Positions 10,063-18,728 of a stretch of DNA of 33,465 nt are shown here, piece after piece. The DNA lies in NCBI GenBank assembly GCA_029547025.1, contig JAKPQA010000273.1, positions 1 to 33,465 on the forward strand. Reading direction: 5' to 3'. Each line of letters begins with the position of its first letter. Positions within the stretch are counted from its first letter, which is position 1. The notes below the pieces were generated by a model. It ran no database searches, was not told where the DNA came from, and saw nothing but the letters and a program-made list of their open reading frames with translations. Source of the DNA: Armatimonadota bacterium (GTDB taxonomy: Bacteria > Armatimonadota > Zipacnadia > UBA1398 > JAKPQA01). The translations under genes were made by a program, and so were the position numbers.

Positions 10063-11643
10063 TCAGAAGACTAGCGGCGTGTCCATGAAATCACGTAGCG
10101 ATGACAGTGAAAGCTCCAGGCCCCCCTTGGCGTCGATGTTGCGCCCATCCACCCAGGCGTCGCCGATGGCCTGCTTCTGCTCCAGCATCATCTTCTGGTA
10201 GTGGTCGATGGTGCCGAAGCCGTAGAGGTAGCTGATCAGGATCGTCGGCGCCACGGTGGACGTTCGGTCGATACGGGCTACCCGCTGGCCGAGCGTGCCC
10301 GCTGACCAGGGGAAGTCGTAGCTGATGAGGTGGGTGCCTCGGTCGAGGTTCACGCCGTAGGCACCTGCGTCGGAGCTGACGAAGGCCCGCACACCGGGGT
10401 TGGTGTTGAAGTTCTCGATGGCCAGCTGGCGGTTCCGGGGCGTGGTCGAGCCTGTCATGGAGACACACCCGAACCCCAGGTCCCGGATCTCCTTCTCGAT
10501 CATCTTCACCATCGACTTGAACACCGAGTAGATGACCACCTTGGCGTCGGGATCCTCCTCGAAGATCATCTTGAGCTGGGCCACGAGGGCGTCGAGCTTC
10601 GCCGAGCTGGCGGGCAGGTTGTCGAGGAGCCCGGCGGCATCCATCTCGGCGGCGTAGGCCGAGCCCGAGGCGGTGTTCGGGTCGTCGTAGTCCTGGGCGC
10701 TTGCAGAAAGCAGCGACGGGTGCGAGCACAGCAAGCGCATGGCGGTGATGCGGGCCATGACTAGGCCCTTGAGCTTGTTGTTGTCGGAGTTGCCCCCGCC
10801 GCCGTAGTGTGACTCCACGTCGAAGCCGCTGACGCCTCCGGCCATGGCCTGGTCGATGGTGTTACACAGATCGTCCCGGATGTAGTCGTAGAGCTTGGCC
10901 TGCTGGCCGGTCATGTGGACCGGGATGTCATTCTCGATGCGCTGGGGCAGGTACTCGGCGATGTCGGCCCGGCTCCGGCGGAACATGGCGTCGCCGAGGG
11001 TCTGCCGGAGGAGCGGGAGGTTGCGGTGTCCGACGGTCTTGCCCCACGGCGTGCGCACCAGGAAGGTCCGGTCGAAGTGCTCGGGGTCTCCCAGCACCGT
11101 GGGGTCCACGAACTGCATGATGGAGTACAGCTCCTCGGGCCTGTTCTCGATCGGCTGCCCCGATAGCCCATATCGGTAGCGTGCGTAGTGGCCCAGCATC
11201 TTGAGGCGCTTGGACCGCTTGGCGTTGAGGCCCTTGATGAACGTCACCTCGTCTGCCACGATGAAGTCGATAGGGAGATACTGCTTGATCAGGTCCCAAT
11301 CGTGTACGAGGGCGTCGTAGTTGAGGATGGTGTACCTGTACTTGTGCGCCTCCTGGTACTGCTGGGTGCGCTTCTTCTTCGACCCGTCGATCACGATCGC
11401 CAGCTCGGCGCTGTCCCACTTGGCCAGCTCGGCGTCCCGCCACTGGAACTTCAGCGAGCTGGGGCAGAAGATGGCGCCGCCCCGCACCGAGCCCTCCTCG
11501 GCCAGGATGCGGATGGTCTCGATGACGGTGCGGGTCTTCCCGGCGCCCTGCACGAGGGCGAGCAGGAGCGACCGGCGGCAGAGCGCCTCATCGACGGCAC
11601 TTTCTTGATACGGCCTTAGTGGCAAATGACTATGAGTCCCCAC
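10063..11643 (-). CDS. SNF2-type superfamily 2 helicase/ATPase
   Basis: A 526-residue protein with a complete SF2 motif set: Walker A VQGAGKT (31-37), motif Ia IFCPSSLKFQW, motif II VADEVTF (DEVT in place of DEAH/DEAD), motif III LSGQPIENRPEEL (160-172, characteristic of the SNF2 group), motif IV KVVIYSVFKSM, motif V SSDAGAYGVNL and motif VI GQRVARIDR. Such phage enzymes translocate on DNA and can remodel forks or displace proteins, comparable in role to T4 UvsW. The GTG at 11643 overlaps the end of the primase gene by 14 bases; a TTG at 11625 is an alternative start. No nuclease domain is fused. Confidence 0.88.
   Translation of the reverse strand: MGTHSHLPLRPYQESAVDEALCRRSLLLALVQGAGKTRTVIETIRILAEEGSVRGGAIFCPSSLKFQWRDAELAKWDSAELAIVIDGSKKKRTQQYQEAHKYRYTILNYDALVHDWDLIKQYLPIDFIVADEVTFIKGLNAKRSKRLKMLGHYARYRYGLSGQPIENRPEELYSIMQFVDPTVLGDPEHFDRTFLVRTPWGKTVGHRNLPLLRQTLGDAMFRRSRADIAEYLPQRIENDIPVHMTGQQAKLYDYIRDDLCNTIDQAMAGGVSGFDVESHYGGGGNSDNNKLKGLVMARITAMRLLCSHPSLLSASAQDYDDPNTASGSAYAAEMDAAGLLDNLPASSAKLDALVAQLKMIFEEDPDAKVVIYSVFKSMVKMIEKEIRDLGFGCVSMTGSTTPRNRQLAIENFNTNPGVRAFVSSDAGAYGVNLDRGTHLISYDFPWSAGTLGQRVARIDRTSTVAPTILISYLYGFGTIDHYQKMMLEQKQAIGDAWVDGRNIDAKGGLELSLSSLRDFMDTPLVF
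11273..11282 (+). repeat. Dispersed 10-mer GGGAGATACT, copy 1
   Basis: One of four exact copies in the window; here it lies inside the SNF2 gene, where the antisense codons read Gln-Tyr-Leu-Pro. See the separate finding. Confidence 0.5.
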
Positions 11644-12574
11644 GGATCCCCAAGCTGTGGCGGAACGCCTGGTAGAGGGAGTAGTCGTCGGCCACGTCGC
11701 CGGGGTCCTTCGCCACGTTGCCGTCCCGGTCCACGAGCCCGGTGTAGTCGAACACGATGGCGGGGCAGCCCCGGCGCCGGAGGCGGGCCATGATCGGCTC
11801 CAGGGCCTCCCGACCTGCCTTGTCGATGGCGGGGTTGTCCACGGCCACGACGACCATGGTGAAGTTCCGGGAGAGCAGGTCGAGCTGGGCGTCGCTGATG
11901 TAGACACCGAACGAGGCCACGGCCCAGACCCCGGCGCACCAGAGGCGCACCACGTCGAGCGGCGACTCCACGACCACGACGATCTTGACCGTCGGCGGGA
12001 TGAGGTGGAGCCCGAACAGGGTCGTGCTCTTCTCCAGCTCCTTCGGGAAGTTGTCCGGGCGCTGGCCGGTGGCTCGGTACTGGACGCCCATCAGCTCGCC
12101 GTGCGGGCTCATAATGGGTATCACCCACCTCTTGCCGTCGAAGTCCCAATGGAGGTCGTACATCTGGGCCGCCTCGGGCCGGATGAAGCGGTGCGCCAGC
12201 ATGTTCTCGGGCATCGGCGGGAAGCTCCGGAGCCACGGGAGGTCCATGATCATCGGGCTGGTCTGGGTGTAGACCGTCTCCTCCCGGGTGGCCCTGGCCA
12301 GGCTCGCCTCGATCGACTGCTTGGCCAGCTCGGACTCCAGGTCTTCGGGCACGACCTCGCCGACGGCACGGTACACGTCGGCCAGCCCGCCCTTGAACCC
12401 GCAGGAGTAGCAGATGTGGGCGCCGGTCTCCCGGTTGATCGACCACGCCTGCGTGTTGGTGTTGGCCCGGCCTGTGCGAGCCTCGTGCGCTGGGCAGAAC
12501 CCCGAGATCTCCTTCGCACCTACTCGAAGCCCTTGGATGCCGAGATCTTCTAGTAGAGGGAGTAGATCCAACAT
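11630..12574 (-). CDS. DnaG-like DNA primase
   Basis: A 314-residue compact primase. The zinc-binding domain has Cys27-x2-His30 (FCPAH) and Cys55-x2-Cys58 (ICYSCGF), the CHCC pattern of DnaG and T7-type primases. A TOPRIM domain follows with Glu203 (VVVESPLDVV) and Asp246/Asp251 (VAVDNPAIDKAG). It makes RNA primers for the helicase encoded immediately upstream. It lacks the C-terminal helicase-interaction domain of DnaG and the fused helicase of T7 gp4. ATG at 12574 overlaps the helicase stop as TGATG; an adjacent in-frame GTG at 12577 is an alternative. Confidence 0.9.
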   Translation of the reverse strand: MLDLLPLLEDLGIQGLRVGAKEISGFCPAHEARTGRANTNTQAWSINRETGAHICYSCGFKGGLADVYRAVGEVVPEDLESELAKQSIEASLARATREETVYTQTSPMIMDLPWLRSFPPMPENMLAHRFIRPEAAQMYDLHWDFDGKRWVIPIMSPHGELMGVQYRATGQRPDNFPKELEKSTTLFGLHLIPPTVKIVVVVESPLDVVRLWCAGVWAVASFGVYISDAQLDLLSRNFTMVVVAVDNPAIDKAGREALEPIMARLRRRGCPAIVFDYTGLVDRDGNVAKDPGDVADDYSLYQAFRHSLGIRGDS

Positions 12575-13890
12575 CACGGAGCCATCGTGAACGACTGGTT
12601 GGAGTTGGCACCCCCGGCCGGAGCGTTCGGGTCGGCGTTGGCCAGCATGATCTCGGCCTCGGCGTCGGTGACGTGGCGGATCGAGCCCTTCGTCCAGTCC
12701 ACCTCGATGTAGAAGTCGGCCTTCATCACGTTACGTCCGGCGATGACGCTGAACTTCGACAGGATGAGGCCGTCCTTGCGCTGGAGCAGCTTCTCGGCGC
12801 CGAGCAGCACGTCGGAGTCCTGGGCGAACGACTGTGAGTACATCGCCGTGCTCATGTTGACGCCGCCCTTGGCCCGGAACTGCGAGCCCTGGGTGGTGAG
12901 GATCACGGGGATGCTCTCGGCCTGAGCCATGCGCTTCAGCGCACGGGTGATGTTGGTCAGCGCCTGGCTGGAGCCCTTCGCCTCGCCCTCCTCGTCATCC
13001 ATGAGGTAGGCGCCGTCCACGAACACGACCCGGGGCTTGTACTGGCGGATCTTCGCCTGGATGGCGCTGACCGTGGTGACCGAGCTGGTGTCGGCCACAA
13101 GAGTGAGTCCCTCATGGGAGTACTCCCGGAGCTTGTGCTCCCGGGCGATGATGTCGATCTCCCGCTGGGTGATCGTGCCGTCGAGGATGGCGTTGTAGTC
13201 CACGCCGGAGACCATGGAGACCAGGCGGTCCTCCTGCTCGGCGGCGCTCATCTCGAAGGTGAAGAACATGGCCCGGCGGCCGACGGAGCGCACGTGCAGC
13301 GCCGAGTAGAGCGCCAGCGTGCTCTTGCCCGTCTTGGGCACGGCGACGATGGAGATGAGCTGGCCGTCCTGGTAGCCCCCCGTGATCGTGTCGAGGATGT
13401 CGAAGCCGGTCTCCACGCCCCGGAGGCCCGGGTTGTTGGCCCGGTCGATGAGGCGCTCCAGGGTGTTCTCCTGGAACATCGTGAAGTAGTCCACGTCCTT
13501 GCCCTCAGGCACCTCGAACCAGGCGGTCTGGAGGCCCTGCCGGAGCGTCTCGGCGAACCGGCGGCCCTTGTCGGGTCCCCCGTCGTCCAGGATCTTCATC
13601 GCCTCCTGCGTAGCGGCGAGGGAGATACGCATCCGCTTCCGGTCACGCAGCTCTTCCAGGTAGTACCTCAGGGGCTCGGGGTACTCGTAGACGGTGAAGG
13701 TCGGGTACGCCCGGTTGACCGAGGTGTGGTCGGGGACGGCCCCGTGCTCCTTCCAGTGCTCGGTGATCATCGTCCAGACCCGGAGGTTGGCCGGGTCCTC
13801 GAAGTACTCGTCACCGATGTGCATCTCGATGGCGGTGGCGATATCCCTATCGGTGATGATGCGGCAGAGGGCGCCGTGCTCGATGTCCAT
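12574..13890 (-). CDS. dnaB: DnaB-like replicative helicase
   Basis: A 438-residue RecA-fold hexameric helicase. A short N-terminal helical domain (1-~130, with a DnaB-like start DIEHGALCRIITDRD) precedes Walker A VAVPKTGKST (182-191), the catalytic Glu213 (FEMS), Walker B VVFVDG (288-293) and the sensor LTTQ (331-334). This is the motor unwinding DNA at the fork. ATG at 13890 overlaps the upstream stop (TGATG), which excludes a longer reading frame open upstream. Neighbours are primase downstream and, one gene removed, the DnaC-like loader. The Asn/Ala-rich C-terminal tail is short. Confidence 0.92.
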   Translation of the reverse strand: MDIEHGALCRIITDRDIATAIEMHIGDEYFEDPANLRVWTMITEHWKEHGAVPDHTSVNRAYPTFTVYEYPEPLRYYLEELRDRKRMRISLAATQEAMKILDDGGPDKGRRFAETLRQGLQTAWFEVPEGKDVDYFTMFQENTLERLIDRANNPGLRGVETGFDILDTITGGYQDGQLISIVAVPKTGKSTLALYSALHVRSVGRRAMFFTFEMSAAEQEDRLVSMVSGVDYNAILDGTITQREIDIIAREHKLREYSHEGLTLVADTSSVTTVSAIQAKIRQYKPRVVFVDGAYLMDDEEGEAKGSSQALTNITRALKRMAQAESIPVILTTQGSQFRAKGGVNMSTAMYSQSFAQDSDVLLGAEKLLQRKDGLILSKFSVIAGRNVMKADFYIEVDWTKGSIRHVTDAEAEIMLANADPNAPAGGANSNQSFTMAP

Positions 13891-14315
13891 CAGAACACCC
13901 CGCCGACGACGGCGTAGCCACGCTGGCCGTACCGCTGGATGCGCTGCGGGCTCGCCTCGTAGATCGTCTGGATGTCCTGGCGCCAGGCCAAGCTCGTGCA
14001 GAAGGTCTCGAAGTTGTAGGACTCCACCCCCGCCACGCCGATGTCGTAGCGCTGGAACCACTCGGCGGCGGCGTCAGCGATCGCCTGGCCCTGGAAGGTC
14101 ACCACGTCGATGAACATACTCAGCCGGTAGATCTTGTCCTGGAGGGACTTGATTGCCATCTCGGACCAGCGCCAGTTGTCGGGCTCGTCCAGCACCTCGA
14201 CGGGCACCCGGAGGCCCCGGCGCTTCTCCCGGTAGGTCGGGACGCAGAGGAGCCCCTCCAGCACCACGATGGATCGTGAGGTGCCCCACGTTGCAAGGTC
14301 GCCGCCCTCCATCAT
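13890..14315 (-). CDS. Small protein of unknown function between loader and helicase
   Basis: A 141-residue protein, not recognised. It starts with tandem ATGs (14315, 14312), the first of which overlaps the stop of the loader gene. The sequence looks alpha/beta: a strand RSIVVLEGLLCV, a basic turn YREKRRGLRV, a helix around EMAIKSLQDKIYRLSMFIDV, then a strand and helix ending in a Gly-rich GYAVVGGVF. Its position between the DnaC-like loader and the DnaB-like helicase, overlapping both, suggests a helicase-loading or fork-assembly partner. No catalytic motif is evident. Confidence 0.6.
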   Translation of the reverse strand: MMEGGDLATWGTSRSIVVLEGLLCVPTYREKRRGLRVPVEVLDEPDNWRWSEMAIKSLQDKIYRLSMFIDVVTFQGQAIADAAAEWFQRYDIGVAGVESYNFETFCTSLAWRQDIQTIYEASPQRIQRYGQRGYAVVGGVF

Positions 14316-14935
14316 GCCCCCAGCTGCGGGAGGTTGATGATCGTGGCGTACTCCGTGAGGAGCCGCCCGAGCATGGAGTTGGGCGGCGGGAGCTTCCGGC
14401 CGCAGAGCACGGTCACGAGCCCGAGGTCGAGCCGCTGCTTGATGAGCTTGTCCAGCTCCATCTGCTTGTAGTCGGGCAGGTCCCAATAGAAAAGTTCATC
14501 AATGACCAGGGGCTCGATCATCGTGAGCTTCAGGAAGGCGTTCTCGTAGACCCGGAACTCCTCCCAGAGCATGTCGTTGCGGGTGTCGTTGACCAGCATG
14601 CGCTCGTACCAGCGCTTGCGCTCCAGATCCTCGACGTAGCGTGACTCACTCCAGTAGCCCATGCGGTGGGCGCCGCAGAGCATGGCGGCGTACACGCCGA
14701 GCCACGTCTTGCCGGACTTGTACTCGCCGTGGAGATACAGACACCGTGAGTCGTCGTCCTCGGCCCACTCCTTCATCCGCACGTGCATGTTGATGCCCCG
14801 GTGCGGGAGCTTGGAGGCGCTGAGGTGGAACACCCGGGGGTCGCCGGGCATCGTCGCCGTCTCGGCCACCACGGTGCTGATCGGCTTGCCGATGTCGGTG
14901 ACCGGCCGGAGGTGGGGGATCTCGTCGTCGCTCAT
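14312..14935 (-). CDS. DnaC-like helicase loader (AAA+ ATPase)
   Basis: A 207-residue P-loop ATPase with Walker A GEYKSGKT (70-77) and Walker B PLVIDEL (142-148), followed by LVTVLCGRKLP, a sensor-type segment. Size and arrangement match DnaC/IstB-type loaders: a ~50-residue N-terminal part for helicase contact and one AAA+ core. It would load the DnaB-like helicase at the origin or at forks, using the initiator encoded just upstream. ATG at 14935 overlaps the initiator stop by four bases (ATGA). A C-terminal ARG-finger region is not obvious, so the family call rests on the P-loop, size and gene order. Confidence 0.82.
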   Translation of the reverse strand: MSDDEIPHLRPVTDIGKPISTVVAETATMPGDPRVFHLSASKLPHRGINMHVRMKEWAEDDDSRCLYLHGEYKSGKTWLGVYAAMLCGAHRMGYWSESRYVEDLERKRWYERMLVNDTRNDMLWEEFRVYENAFLKLTMIEPLVIDELFYWDLPDYKQMELDKLIKQRLDLGLVTVLCGRKLPPPNSMLGRLLTEYATIINLPQLGA

Positions 14936-16146
14936 TGGGCCGCCCGGAACTGCTCAGGGATATACACATCGACGGGCGCAGCCTCCTCGGCGGCCCGGCG
15001 AGCACGATACGCCTCCTGCTGGGCTCGGAAGGCATCGGCCGTCTCGTCCACGGGGGCCGCAGCCTCCTGGGCACGGCGCAGCTTCTCGAAGTCCTTGGCC
15101 ATGTACCGGAACACCGGCATCCGATCACCAGGCTGAGGGACCTCTCCGGAAGCGACCATCGAGCAGTAGGCCACGATGGCCTCGGCCGCCGCCTCCTCGG
15201 AGCCGCAGCGGGGGATCAGATCCTTGTTCAGCCAGGCGTGGAAGACGGACTTCTGCGAGCCCGCCCAGGGCTGGAACGGGAGCGAGAGCTTGTTGACGGC
15301 CGCACGGGTCTTGGCCCACTCGGACTCGAACAGCAGCCCGAGCCGGAAGGCAGGGGCGTGGGTCTTCTTCGGCTTCTGCACGTGGTCGTCGGGCTGGGAC
15401 TCTGGGGCTCCCAGGTCCACGCCGTTCGTGGGTCGCTTCAACTCGTCCTCCTCGACGGTCGCAGACAGTATCACACTCCTGGGTCGGCGGGGGCGAAGCC
15501 GCCGCACTTCTCTAGAAGTACTACTCTCTCCCTTACTATCTATGGTGCTCGTGGGGAAGGAAATACCCTCCAAAAAGCCCGAGATTTCGGGGGTCTCAGG
15601 CTGTAGCAACAAAGTTGCGAGCGTGCCATTCTGGCACTCTGAGAATGCCAATTTGGCACTCTCACCGCTGAAGACTTCCTGCGCCAGCTTGTCGTCCAGC
15701 ATCAGGATATCAACAACACAAGCAAATGTGACCCGGTAGACGGGGTACTCGCCGGGCTTCTTGAGGGACGCCACGGAGCGCACCTCGGAGGTCATGACGC
15801 CTGCCTCGTGGAGCATGGTCAGGTGCCGGTGGAGCGACCTGAGTGACACACCGAAGCGGTCGGCCCAATCGCTCATGCTCTTCGTCTGGACCCAGGCCCA
15901 GGGCTCGGCCGGGTGGCTCCGGCGGATGATCTCGGCCAGCAGTCCTCCGGCCGGTCCGAGTCGGTTGTTCTTCGCCCAGCGCTGCGCATTGTTGGCGGCG
16001 GTGGTGCGGTAGCGGTAGAAATCTCTGCGCATCTCGTCCTGAGTAGGGTGTTGCGCTGCGTGGTAGATACCGTCTATGTTGGAAGGCGTACGCAGCGGGT
16101 GTTGGCTGTAACGGTTGCTCGGTGTTGATGTCGGTGGTGGAGACAC
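14932..16146 (-). CDS. Replication initiator-like protein (winged helix N-terminus)
   Basis: A 404-residue protein. Residues ~84-140 contain a winged-helix domain (KSMSDWADRFGVSLRSLHRH followed by LTMLHEAGVMTS and a wing). A poorly ordered Ser/Thr/Pro-rich linker (~160-260) and a helical C-terminal domain (~265-360, LLFESEWAKTRAAVNKL...WLNKDLI) follow. This is the architecture of phage initiators such as lambda O: an origin-binding N-terminus, a linker and a loader-interacting C-terminus. The gene directly precedes the DnaC-like loader, as O precedes P. The linker DNA carries clustered dyad repeats (15506-15662). The GTG at 16146 is only marginally spaced from AAGGAG; ATG at 16032 (residue 39) is an alternative start. 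Confidence 0.72.
   Translation of the reverse strand: MSPPPTSTPSNRYSQHPLRTPSNIDGIYHAAQHPTQDEMRRDFYRYRTTAANNAQRWAKNNRLGPAGGLLAEIIRRSHPAEPWAWVQTKSMSDWADRFGVSLRSLHRHLTMLHEAGVMTSEVRSVASLKKPGEYPVYRVTFACVVDILMLDDKLAQEVFSGESAKLAFSECQNGTLATLLLQPETPEISGFLEGISFPTSTIDSKGESSTSREVRRLRPRRPRSVILSATVEEDELKRPTNGVDLGAPESQPDDHVQKPKKTHAPAFRLGLLFESEWAKTRAAVNKLSLPFQPWAGSQKSVFHAWLNKDLIPRCGSEEAAAEAIVAYCSMVASGEVPQPGDRMPVFRYMAKDFEKLRRAQEAAAPVDETADAFRAQQEAYRARRAAEEAAPVDVYIPEQFRAAQ
15624..15640 (+). repeat. Iteron-like repeat 1
   Basis: TGCCATTCTGGCACTCT: a 5-3-5 dyad followed by CTCT. It matches repeat 2 at 15 of 17 positions, starting 22 bases earlier, i.e. about two helical turns, so both would face the same side of the DNA. 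Confidence 0.65.
15646..15662 (+). repeat. Iteron-like repeat 2
   Basis: TGCCAATTTGGCACTCT: the dyad here is six bases per arm (TGCCAA-T-TTGGCA). Same CTCT flank as repeat 1. Its mismatches to repeat 1 fall only in the dyad centre. Confidence 0.65.
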
Positions 16147-16233
16147 TCCTTCGTTGGCCGGTTGTGGTGACCTGACGGGCTGACCATACAGCCAGCACCC
16201 CTGCGGTGTCTACCAAGGCAGAGGAATCTCTCG
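16147..16233. promoter_or_regulatory. Divergent intergenic region between replication module and rightward cassette
   Basis: An 87-base region between the GTG of the leftward initiator gene and the GTG of the rightward membrane protein gene. By position it should hold promoters for both directions. A rightward candidate is TTGTGG (16162-16167) with CATACA (16185-16190) at 17-base spacing, but it matches consensus poorly. On the minus strand AAGGAG sits directly at the initiator start; on the plus strand AGAGGAA lies eight bases before 16234. No convincing operator repeats were seen here. Confidence 0.4.
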
Positions 16234-16530
16234 GTGATCCATCTCGTGCTCGTTGCTCTCGCAGTCCACCTCGTCTCGACGGTGTTGACCATGCAGCCGC
16301 TCACGATCACGCTGCCCCGTTGGGCCTGGCACTCCGTGTGGGGTGTTGTGTGTGTCACTGTAGAGTGTGTTACTGTCGGCGGCGACCACTGGCTCCAGGG
16401 CCTGGCCGCCGGAGGGCTCGCACTCATGCTGAGCCGCTTCGATGATTTCCTCGTGACGGCTGCCGACCTGGCGCTGCTGCGACTCAAGCGTGCAGCCTTC
16501 GATCTGCGCACCAAGCCCCCAACCCCATAG
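16234..16530 (+). CDS. Small multi-span membrane protein
   Basis: A 98-residue protein, first gene of the rightward cassette. Hydrophobic segments lie at residues ~2-20 (IHLVLVALAVHLVSTVLTM), ~33-50 (HSVWGVVCVTVECVTVGG) and ~53-67 (WLQGLAAGGLALMLS). An amphipathic basic C-terminus follows (LLRLKRAAFDLRTKPPTP). The GTG start at 16234 has AGAGGAA at good spacing, and the stop overlaps the ribosome site of the next gene, which supports co-translation. Size and topology would fit a holin, but no endolysin is adjacent; a membrane effector or sensor tied to the two following genes is another option. Function not established. Confidence 0.58.
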   Translation: MIHLVLVALAVHLVSTVLTMQPLTITLPRWAWHSVWGVVCVTVECVTVGGDHWLQGLAAGGLALMLSRFDDFLVTAADLALLRLKRAAFDLRTKPPTP

Positions 16531-16542: not shown

Positions 16543-18231
16543 ATGGCAATCATGCACTTCGTCGCCGGTACCGGCACGATGCCCAAGGCCGAGGCCAAGG
16601 CCGTCCTCAACGACCTCTGGGCCGCCGAGGACCACCTCACCCCCACCGGCCAGCCCGTCGGGATCTACTTCGTCATCGAGGCGCAGGTCGATCCGGGCGA
16701 GGGTCACCAGTCCATCGTGGAGTGGATGCACGAGCAGGGACTGACGTACTACGTCATCTCGCCCCCCGGCCAGCAGCCGCACGTGCTCTACAACGGAGCC
16801 ACCCAGGTCATGGACGGTGCGGCGATCACGCCCTTCATCTACGCCCAGAGCGCCGTGGCGCAGGGCATGCCGGTCCAGCTCCTGGCGCTGTTCGTGGACG
16901 CCTCCAACGAGAACCCGCTCGACGCCCAGCTCGTCCAGACGGTGGAGTCCTTCACCGATGCGGGCTACCCGGCCAAGGCGATGAACGCCCAGATGTGGGA
17001 CCTCAACATGACGGCGCCCGAGGAGGCCGTGGTCGATCCGGCCCAGACCGCCGTCGCTCAGCTCCCGCAGGCGGCGCCCGTCGCTCCGGTGCAGCAGGCG
17101 CCCGTCGCCCCGGCGATGCCCGCCCCCGTCGATCAGACGGCCGCTCCGGCCGGTCCCGTCGGCCAGGTGCAGGCGCCCGCCTTCATCCAGAGCCCGCCCG
17201 AGCAGCTGGCGGCACCCGTCGCCCCCGCTCCCCTCGACCCGGCGGCGCAGGCCCAGGCCGACGCCTACCAGCAGCAGCTGGCGGCCATCGAGGCCCAGCA
17301 GGCGCAGCTCCCGGCGGCACCGAACCCGCCCTCCGTCGAGGCCCCGGCCAACCCGAGCCCGGCGCCCGCCCCGGCCCCGGCCCCGGCCGGTGGTGTGCGC
17401 TGGCCCACCGACGGCGAGCTGGACGAGATGACCATCGCCGACAAGCGCACGCTGGGCAAGGACCTGTTCGCCAAGAACCTCATCCCGGCGCCGGTCGCCG
17501 ATGATGGCCGGGCGCCCAGCTGGAAGGCCGGTGACCCCATCGTCCTCGCCATCAAGCTCGGTCGTGCCGCCGCCCTCGGCACTCCCGCTCCGGAGGCCAC
17601 GGCGCCGCCCGCCGCCGTCGTGGAGCCGGTGCAGCCCCCGACGCCCGCCGGTCCCCCCGGGATGACCCTCACCGAGGCCGTCGCTGCCCAGCACGGCGGC
17701 GTGCTCCCGTCGTACATCACGCCGCCGGTTACCGAGGGTTCGGTCGTGCCGGTCGCTCCGGGCCAGGTCGTCAGCGCTCCCGTCCTGCCGGTGGCGGCCC
17801 CCGCCGACTACCAGGTGGCCATGTCGGCGTCGGCCGGTGAGGAGGAGATGTCGGCCAACGCTCTGCCGCCGGGCGAGCCCACCACCCTCGGCCAGCTCAC
17901 GCCCGAGCAGTTCGCCCAGCAGGGCAAGGACATGCTGGAGCACCGGGCCACCGAGCGTGGCATCGAGATCTTCCGCTCGAACTTCCCGGTGGCCACCATC
18001 GGCACCGAGACGGCGAACGACATCTCCCTGCTCCACGAGCACGGCAAGGACTTCGCCGAGGCGGTCTACCGCATCACCGGCCGCCGGAGCCCGGAGCTGA
18101 CCGTGGCCATCAACAAGGTGCAGGAGGCCATCTTCTGGGCCGAGGCCGCCATCACCCGCTACGACGGCGTGGAGCCCGACATCAGCTTCATCACGCAGTC
18201 CCCGGCCTTCCCCAAGGAGCCGCAGGTCTGA
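16543..18231 (+). CDS. Multidomain protein with C-terminal Acb2/Tad1-like hairpin domain
   Basis: A 562-residue protein in three parts. Residues 1-152 look like an alpha/beta Rossmann-type domain: strands HFVAG, GIYFVIEA, TYYVIS and LLALFVDAS alternate with helices. Residues 153-285 and 345-440 are Pro/Ala/Gln-rich linkers around a small folded segment (286-345, TDGELDEMTIADKRTLGKDL and onward). Residues ~465-542 contain a helical hairpin: ISLLHEHGKDFAEAVYRIT, a GRRSPE turn, then LTVAINKVQEAIFWAEAAIT. The second helix matches the pattern (alternating A-L-T-K-L-E-E-A-x-F-W-A-N-A-A-I-x-R) that I associate with Acb2/Tad1 proteins, which sequester cyclic oligonucleotides or gcADPR to block CBASS or Thoeris. 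Fusion to a large N-terminal region is unusual, as characterised family members are short. The family call is from memory of the pattern. Confidence 0.68.
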   Translation: MAIMHFVAGTGTMPKAEAKAVLNDLWAAEDHLTPTGQPVGIYFVIEAQVDPGEGHQSIVEWMHEQGLTYYVISPPGQQPHVLYNGATQVMDGAAITPFIYAQSAVAQGMPVQLLALFVDASNENPLDAQLVQTVESFTDAGYPAKAMNAQMWDLNMTAPEEAVVDPAQTAVAQLPQAAPVAPVQQAPVAPAMPAPVDQTAAPAGPVGQVQAPAFIQSPPEQLAAPVAPAPLDPAAQAQADAYQQQLAAIEAQQAQLPAAPNPPSVEAPANPSPAPAPAPAPAGGVRWPTDGELDEMTIADKRTLGKDLFAKNLIPAPVADDGRAPSWKAGDPIVLAIKLGRAAALGTPAPEATAPPAAVVEPVQPPTPAGPPGMTLTEAVAAQHGGVLPSYITPPVTEGSVVPVAPGQVVSAPVLPVAAPADYQVAMSASAGEEEMSANALPPGEPTTLGQLTPEQFAQQGKDMLEHRATERGIEIFRSNFPVATIGTETANDISLLHEHGKDFAEAVYRITGRRSPELTVAINKVQEAIFWAEAAITRYDGVEPDISFITQSPAFPKEPQV

Positions 18232-18311: not shown

Positions 18312-18350
18312 TGCTTGATACCCATATCCCAAGAGAAGAGGTACACCATC

Positions 18351-18728
18351 ATGAGGAAGTTCACACCCGAGGAGATCGCCAAGGTCACCCACCAGGCCAA
18401 CCAGGCGCTGCGTGAGATCCTGGGCGAGGAGGGCGACAACCCGAGCTGGGACGACGCCCCGTTCGACCAGCGTGAGTCGGTGCGCATCGGCGTCGTCGGC
18501 ATCATGGAGGGCAACACGCCCGAGCAGAGCCACCAGCTCTGGCTCGACACCAAGCGTGCCCAGGGTTGGACCCACGGCAAGGTGAAGGACGCCGAGGCGA
18601 AGACGCACCCGTGCTTCCTGCCCTACGAGGAGCTGCCGCCGGAGCAGAAGCTCAAGGACCACCTGTTCTCGGCGATCATCAAGACCTTCGTCGGATTCGC
18701 CTACGCAGAGGAGCACGGAGGGGTGTAG
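18351..18728 (+). CDS. RyR-domain protein
   Basis: A 125-residue protein. An N-terminal helical part (residues 5-55, with PSWDDAPFDQRESV) leads into the RyR signature: TPEQSHQLWLDTKRAQGW (56-73), HGKVKDAEAKTHPCFLPYEE (75-94) and LPPEQKLKDHLF (95-106). The HPC-PYxELPxxxKxxD core is typical of the single RyR repeat found in many phage proteins. RyR domains in bacteria and phages have been proposed to sense nucleotides or nucleotide-derived second messengers; the phage function is not established. ATG at 18351 follows AAGAGG with ten-base spacing. It is the last gene of the rightward cassette and probably cotranscribed with the preceding gene. Confidence 0.82.
   Translation: MRKFTPEEIAKVTHQANQALREILGEEGDNPSWDDAPFDQRESVRIGVVGIMEGNTPEQSHQLWLDTKRAQGWTHGKVKDAEAKTHPCFLPYEELPPEQKLKDHLFSAIIKTFVGFAYAEEHGGV

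Follow-up and report, generated by a model that had tools for sequence, protein, structure and literature searches.

Tandem dyads inside a phage initiator gene on an Armatimonadota contig mark a probable lambda-type replication origin

An interval of about 180 bp, at approximately 15485-15662 of the window (the whole 33,465-bp contig analysed here), is very probably a phage replication origin of the lambda type, lying within the gene for its own initiator. The contig belongs to a 6.3 Mb draft genome and contains phage genes; because it is only a 33 kb piece, an additional origin may lie elsewhere. It is very rare for the origin of an uncultivated phage to be located, and here a candidate could be placed to about 180 bp from sequence. 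An earlier note on this DNA had drawn the origin at 15506-15662. That span does hold the repeats and the AT-rich tract, but the candidate origin reaches further, taking in a GC-rich hairpin at 15485-15504. Systems of this kind are already known; what appears new, within the literature searched, is the clade, the iteron and the evidence from comparison of relatives.

The replication genes lie on the minus strand in the order winged-helix initiator, AAA+ loader, small protein, DnaB, TOPRIM primase and SNF2 helicase. The initiator gene (14932-16146) encodes 404 residues and matches PHROG 270, replication initiation, at E 1e-3. Directly downstream is the gene for an AAA+ helicase loader (14312-14935; 25% identity to the loader of the related locus L062, E 6e-7), which is DnaC-like, as the earlier note had proposed, and not P-like; the relatives' loaders match the PHROG 50 DnaC-like helicase loader profile at E 1e-20. 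The remaining genes are a DnaB-type replicative helicase (12574-13890; PHROG 19, E 7e-53), a TOPRIM DNA primase (11630-12577; PHROG 47, E 1e-29) and an SNF2-type helicase (10063 to about 11616; PHROG 62, E 4e-88), which closes the conserved module. Between loader and DnaB, here and in nearly all relatives, sits a conserved protein of about 140 residues (13890-14312), with 51 phmmer matches among the relatives and no match in a PHROG search; it is likely an uncharacterised replication factor. On the plus strand, upstream of the initiator, 16543-18231 encodes a 562-residue protein carrying an Acb2/Tad1-like hairpin at its C terminus (Pfam E 4.6e-6); on visual inspection, its N-terminal part is similar to the products of genes upstream of the initiator in relatives. 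Also on the plus strand, 18315-18728 encodes a RyR-domain protein (Pfam E 1.8e-11) that matches PHROG 5154 as well. The heptamer GGTGTTG, present in five copies at 16047-16342 in the divergent promoter region, was set aside, six other 7-mers being equally dense.

The centre of the candidate origin is a tandem pair of putative iterons located about 480-530 nt inside the initiator gene. Iteron 1, the first in the sense direction, occupies 15641-15662 of the minus strand and iteron 2 occupies 15619-15640; each is a 22-bp imperfect palindrome with the dyad TGCCA-N3-TGGCA, at a distance of 22 bp. The inverted repeats themselves read TGCCA-att-TGGCA at 15646-15658 and GTGCCA-ttc-TGGCAC at 15623-15637. 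The near-identical 17-mers of the earlier note, TGCCATTCTGGCACTCT (15624) and TGCCAATTTGGCACTCT (15646), are exactly 22 bases apart and agree at 15 of 17 positions. TGCCA-N3-TGGCA occurs exactly twice in the 33,465 bases, both times in this tandem. As 22 is not divisible by 3, the copies fall in two reading frames and do not form a protein repeat. Two iterons are recognisable here, and most relatives have three or four.

All five inverted repeats reported earlier within about 160 bases were found where they had been placed, but only the two described above look like iterons. One of the other three is a minor dyad, GCAAC-aaa-GTTGC (15606-15618), 18 bp from iteron 2 and out of the iteron phase. 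Another, CCCGA-gatt-TCGGG (CCCGAAATCTCGGG) at 15578-15591 of the minus strand, is followed by CTTTTT and, read along the gene, resembles a terminator; this stem and T run sit between the iterons and the AT-rich tract, inside the initiator gene. Two terminator-like stems were found in the region, compared with 0.6 expected. The last, ACTTCT-ct-AGAAGT at 15506-15519, falls within the AT-rich tract.

That tract (15506-15577) is the putative unwinding element. The AT content of the gene, and of the whole contig, peaks in the 60 nt from 15506 (0.57), and the tract is purine-rich on the sense strand, with a plus-strand pyrimidine fraction of 0.68 over 15506-15545, which bears out the pyrimidine-skewed, AT-richer stretch of the earlier description. 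The AT-richest 60 nt of the gene lie 88 nt past the first iteron here and 56-130 nt past it in most relatives. A GC-rich hairpin, CGGCGG-N8-CCGCCG (15485-15504), closes the AT-rich side, and hairpins are present at the corresponding place in many relatives. Enrichment of TAG triplets resembling a DnaA-trio in the tract was weak (1.4-fold). GC skew, which the earlier note had offered as a check, gave no support: in four relatives of 92-99 kb the skew tracks gene strand and does not switch at the site, and skew within the window was uninformative.

The number of inverted repeats is in itself unremarkable, since at least three perfect repeats with arms of at least 6 are found per 160 bp in about 2% of windows. 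We scored tandem dyads (T) by two dyads together with their mutual identity, against a null of synonymous shuffles in which protein and codon usage were fixed. The initiator gene reached T = 32, compared with 24.8 +/- 1.1 after codon shuffling (z 6.3; none of 400 shuffles scored as high), and six other genes of the contig showed no signal in the same test (z -1.3 to 1.3). Codon choice collapses over 15442-15741 of the minus strand, where rare codons abound and GC3 is 0.48-0.76, compared with about 0.9 in other genes; none of 3,888 background windows scores as low as the codon-rarity minimum within this segment. This argues for selection there on the DNA rather than on the protein.

The initiator is predicted to comprise an N-terminal winged helix (approximately residues 60-140), a low-confidence linker and a helical C-terminal domain. 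Residues 162-259, a span that covers the iterons and the AT-rich tract, have a pLDDT below 50 in the structure model, which is in line with a disordered linker, as had been suggested for the part of the gene that holds the repeats. Models of the winged-helix domain matched MarR-type regulators in the PDB, and viral matches were to GpO-N, DnaD and RepA-like proteins; a single-sequence structure model of the initiator was poor and was set aside. Matches of the protein to O-like profiles were weak (E 1e-3 to 0.07), with sister-family relatives reaching 5e-12. Translation of the initiator may in fact start downstream of the GTG at 16146, for example at an ATG near 16032. Rare codons also occur at the 5' end of the ORF, at 16012-16146.

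Direct protein searches with the initiator in phage and GTDB collections, IMG/VR and 200 related genomes returned no close relatives. Relatives were reached through DnaB, which led to more than 100 IMG/VR loci from uncultivated phages (L002-L117); in those whose module was read out, the genes ran initiator, loader, small protein, DnaB, primase and SNF2. Among them, the L070 initiator is 24% identical to that of the window over 390 residues (E 3e-19). Its aligned site reads GTGCCA-CTT-TGGCAC, with its half-site recurring 22 bp away (TTTGGCACTTA twice), and the dyad is followed by an AT-rich tract with TAGTAGTAGTAG and then by a GC hairpin. It is the sole TGCCA dyad in 15 kb of L070, and L070 is the only locus of the module found with the window's motif. 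Considered singly, the L070 repeat is weak (p about 0.04-0.07), and codon shuffling of L070 produced the dyad in 2.6% of cases. The dyad match could partly reflect protein conservation, because the residues C and GT are common to both there. Shared motif, period and place nevertheless appear telling in combination.

Dyads at the matching place are widespread in the module, although mostly of another sequence. Significant tandem dyads were found in 18 of 20 dereplicated module initiators, so that the conservation in relatives proposed earlier as a check was borne out both by these arrays and by L070. Most module relatives carry GGTCA-N4-TGACC iterons; others have TGTCA-N4-TGACA (L110), ATGTGAC-N5-GTCACAT (L064 and L069) or, in L062, a perfect 21-bp tandem. 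Putative homology between the initiators of the window group and the GGTCA-iteron sister family is based on gene order and a profile match (E 1.8e-6); the sister family in turn matches the PHROG 'replication initiation' and 'O-like' profiles at up to 5e-12. Adjacent main-lineage iterons in 29 distinct regions are spaced at 22, 23, 33, 34, 44, 45 or 57 bp, two further matches about 220 bp off being outside the arrays. These spacings are helically phased, near 11 bp, and 60% of them are not multiples of 3. The flanks of the dyad arms vary in pairs: the outermost pair is complementary in 36 of 45 cases, compared with 21 expected, these being related sequences and not independent. In the 92-99 kb relatives the dyads cluster in the initiator gene only. 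A concerted change separates the close relatives L064 (5190-5260) and L066 (5350-5420): the three iterons have all changed, with GTGAC..GGTCAC in the one and GTGCCATCTGGTCAC in the other.

We also took an approach based on DNA alone, scanning all IMG/VR contigs for two TGCCA-N3-TGGCA dyads at 22 bp with nothing else required. This yielded 14 stretches, duplicates among them. Six distinct stretches (L159/L169, L160, L162, L165, L168 and L170) lie inside genes with matches to phage replication profiles (replication initiation for five, a DnaD-like loader for L170), the dyads being just past the winged helix; these six contigs contain no DnaB, loader or primase related to those of the window. The control motif TCGCA-N3-TGCGA, of the same composition, also gave tandem pairs in O-like initiators and so is not a true negative. 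These genes are therefore marked by tandem dyads of diverse sequence, and the scan is not proof that TGCCA is special. A scan with wider gaps was rejected as mixed, being dominated by unrelated repeats spaced at 29 bp. L176, L185, L186, L226 and L230 have many TGCCA-N3-TGGCA pairs, mostly at this spacing and outside long ORFs; these are large phage contigs with several such pairs in each 10 kb, perhaps promoters or operator arrays.

A simple DNA pattern thus recovers replication initiators in unrelated phages, and the layout is conserved across a large clade. A broader proposition is about as likely as not: helically phased tandem dyads in the linkers of winged-helix initiators would mark phage origins in general and irrespective of sequence, with TGCCA-N3-TGGCA recurring in phages whose replication genes are otherwise unrelated, and with motif and protein changing together between lineages. 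If it holds, DNA alone would be enough to locate origins and initiators in viral contigs that lack annotation. The dyads also provide candidate binding sites for the study of initiator-origin co-evolution.

The origin would work as follows. Initiator dimers would contact the two 22-bp dyads through their winged helices, all on the same face of the DNA, and the complex would open the adjoining AT-rich tract at about 15506-15577. Gene content suggests that the DnaC-like loader would deliver the DnaB encoded by the phage itself to the opened strand, and that the phage primase would then start synthesis. The dyads might instead be operators, through which the initiator or a phage repressor regulates transcription of the replication genes while replication starts elsewhere. 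The likeness of the winged helix to MarR-type regulators, the terminator-like stem just past the dyads and a GC skew that lends an origin no support all fit such a role. We consider it unlikely, as the dyads are 480-530 nt into the gene, far from the promoter, and are mostly accompanied by the gene's AT-richest tract and often by a hairpin; their recurrent placement in replication initiators, in phased arrays of three or four copies, suits an origin better.

It is very unlikely that the repeats are a by-product of a peptide repeat in the linker, or of a recent DNA duplication, rather than binding sites. Linkers tolerate repeats, and in L062, L063 and L064 the unit is indeed 21 bp and in a single frame, but here the period of 22 runs through two frames without a peptide repeat, and most main-lineage spacings likewise depart from multiples of 3. 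Paired changes that preserve dyad symmetry, the same motif in an initiator as distant as that of L070 and the failure of every codon shuffle to reach the observed score also speak against a by-product. Dyads can fold on either strand and a terminator-like stem is nearby, so an RNA hairpin in the transcript, acting in attenuation or stability, could be envisaged; this we regard as extremely improbable, given an Rfam search without a match and a helical phasing of the copies that is expected for DNA binding and not for RNA.

The lambda origin has four iterons, and the lambda loader is of the P type. The window differs in iteron sequence, in having two iterons and not four, in its AAA+ DnaC-like loader, in the GC hairpin after the AT-rich tract and in that its phage carries its own DnaB, primase and SNF2 helicase. 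It shares with the lambda and Stx-phage origins a position in the middle of the initiator gene, imperfect inverted-repeat iterons, an AT-rich tract and a loader gene next door; the lambda-like layout noticed earlier, of dyads, tract and adjacent loader, is thus upheld, and is conserved in relatives. The iterons that the lambda O protein binds are 19-bp imperfect inverted repeats located midway along gene O; unwinding requires at least two of them together with the AT-rich tract, and this minimum suffices (PMC7466680). O-like and HTH phage initiators (PHROG 270, 391, 428, 678 and 1032) resemble the window protein in their N-terminal winged helix and in a linker with in-gene tandem dyads, including the identical TGCCA-N3-TGGCA pair at 22 bp in six distinct contigs, although the window protein matches them weakly (E 1e-3). 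In iteron plasmids the iterons are usually direct repeats outside the rep gene; their origins resemble the window in having initiator sites spaced at 22 bp that adjoin an AT-rich element. The IMG/VR module shares its gene order, homologous DnaB, primase, SNF2 and small protein, phased in-gene iterons and AT-rich tract with the window, and differs in its iterons, which are mostly GGTCA-N4-TGACC as against TGCCA-N3-TGGCA.
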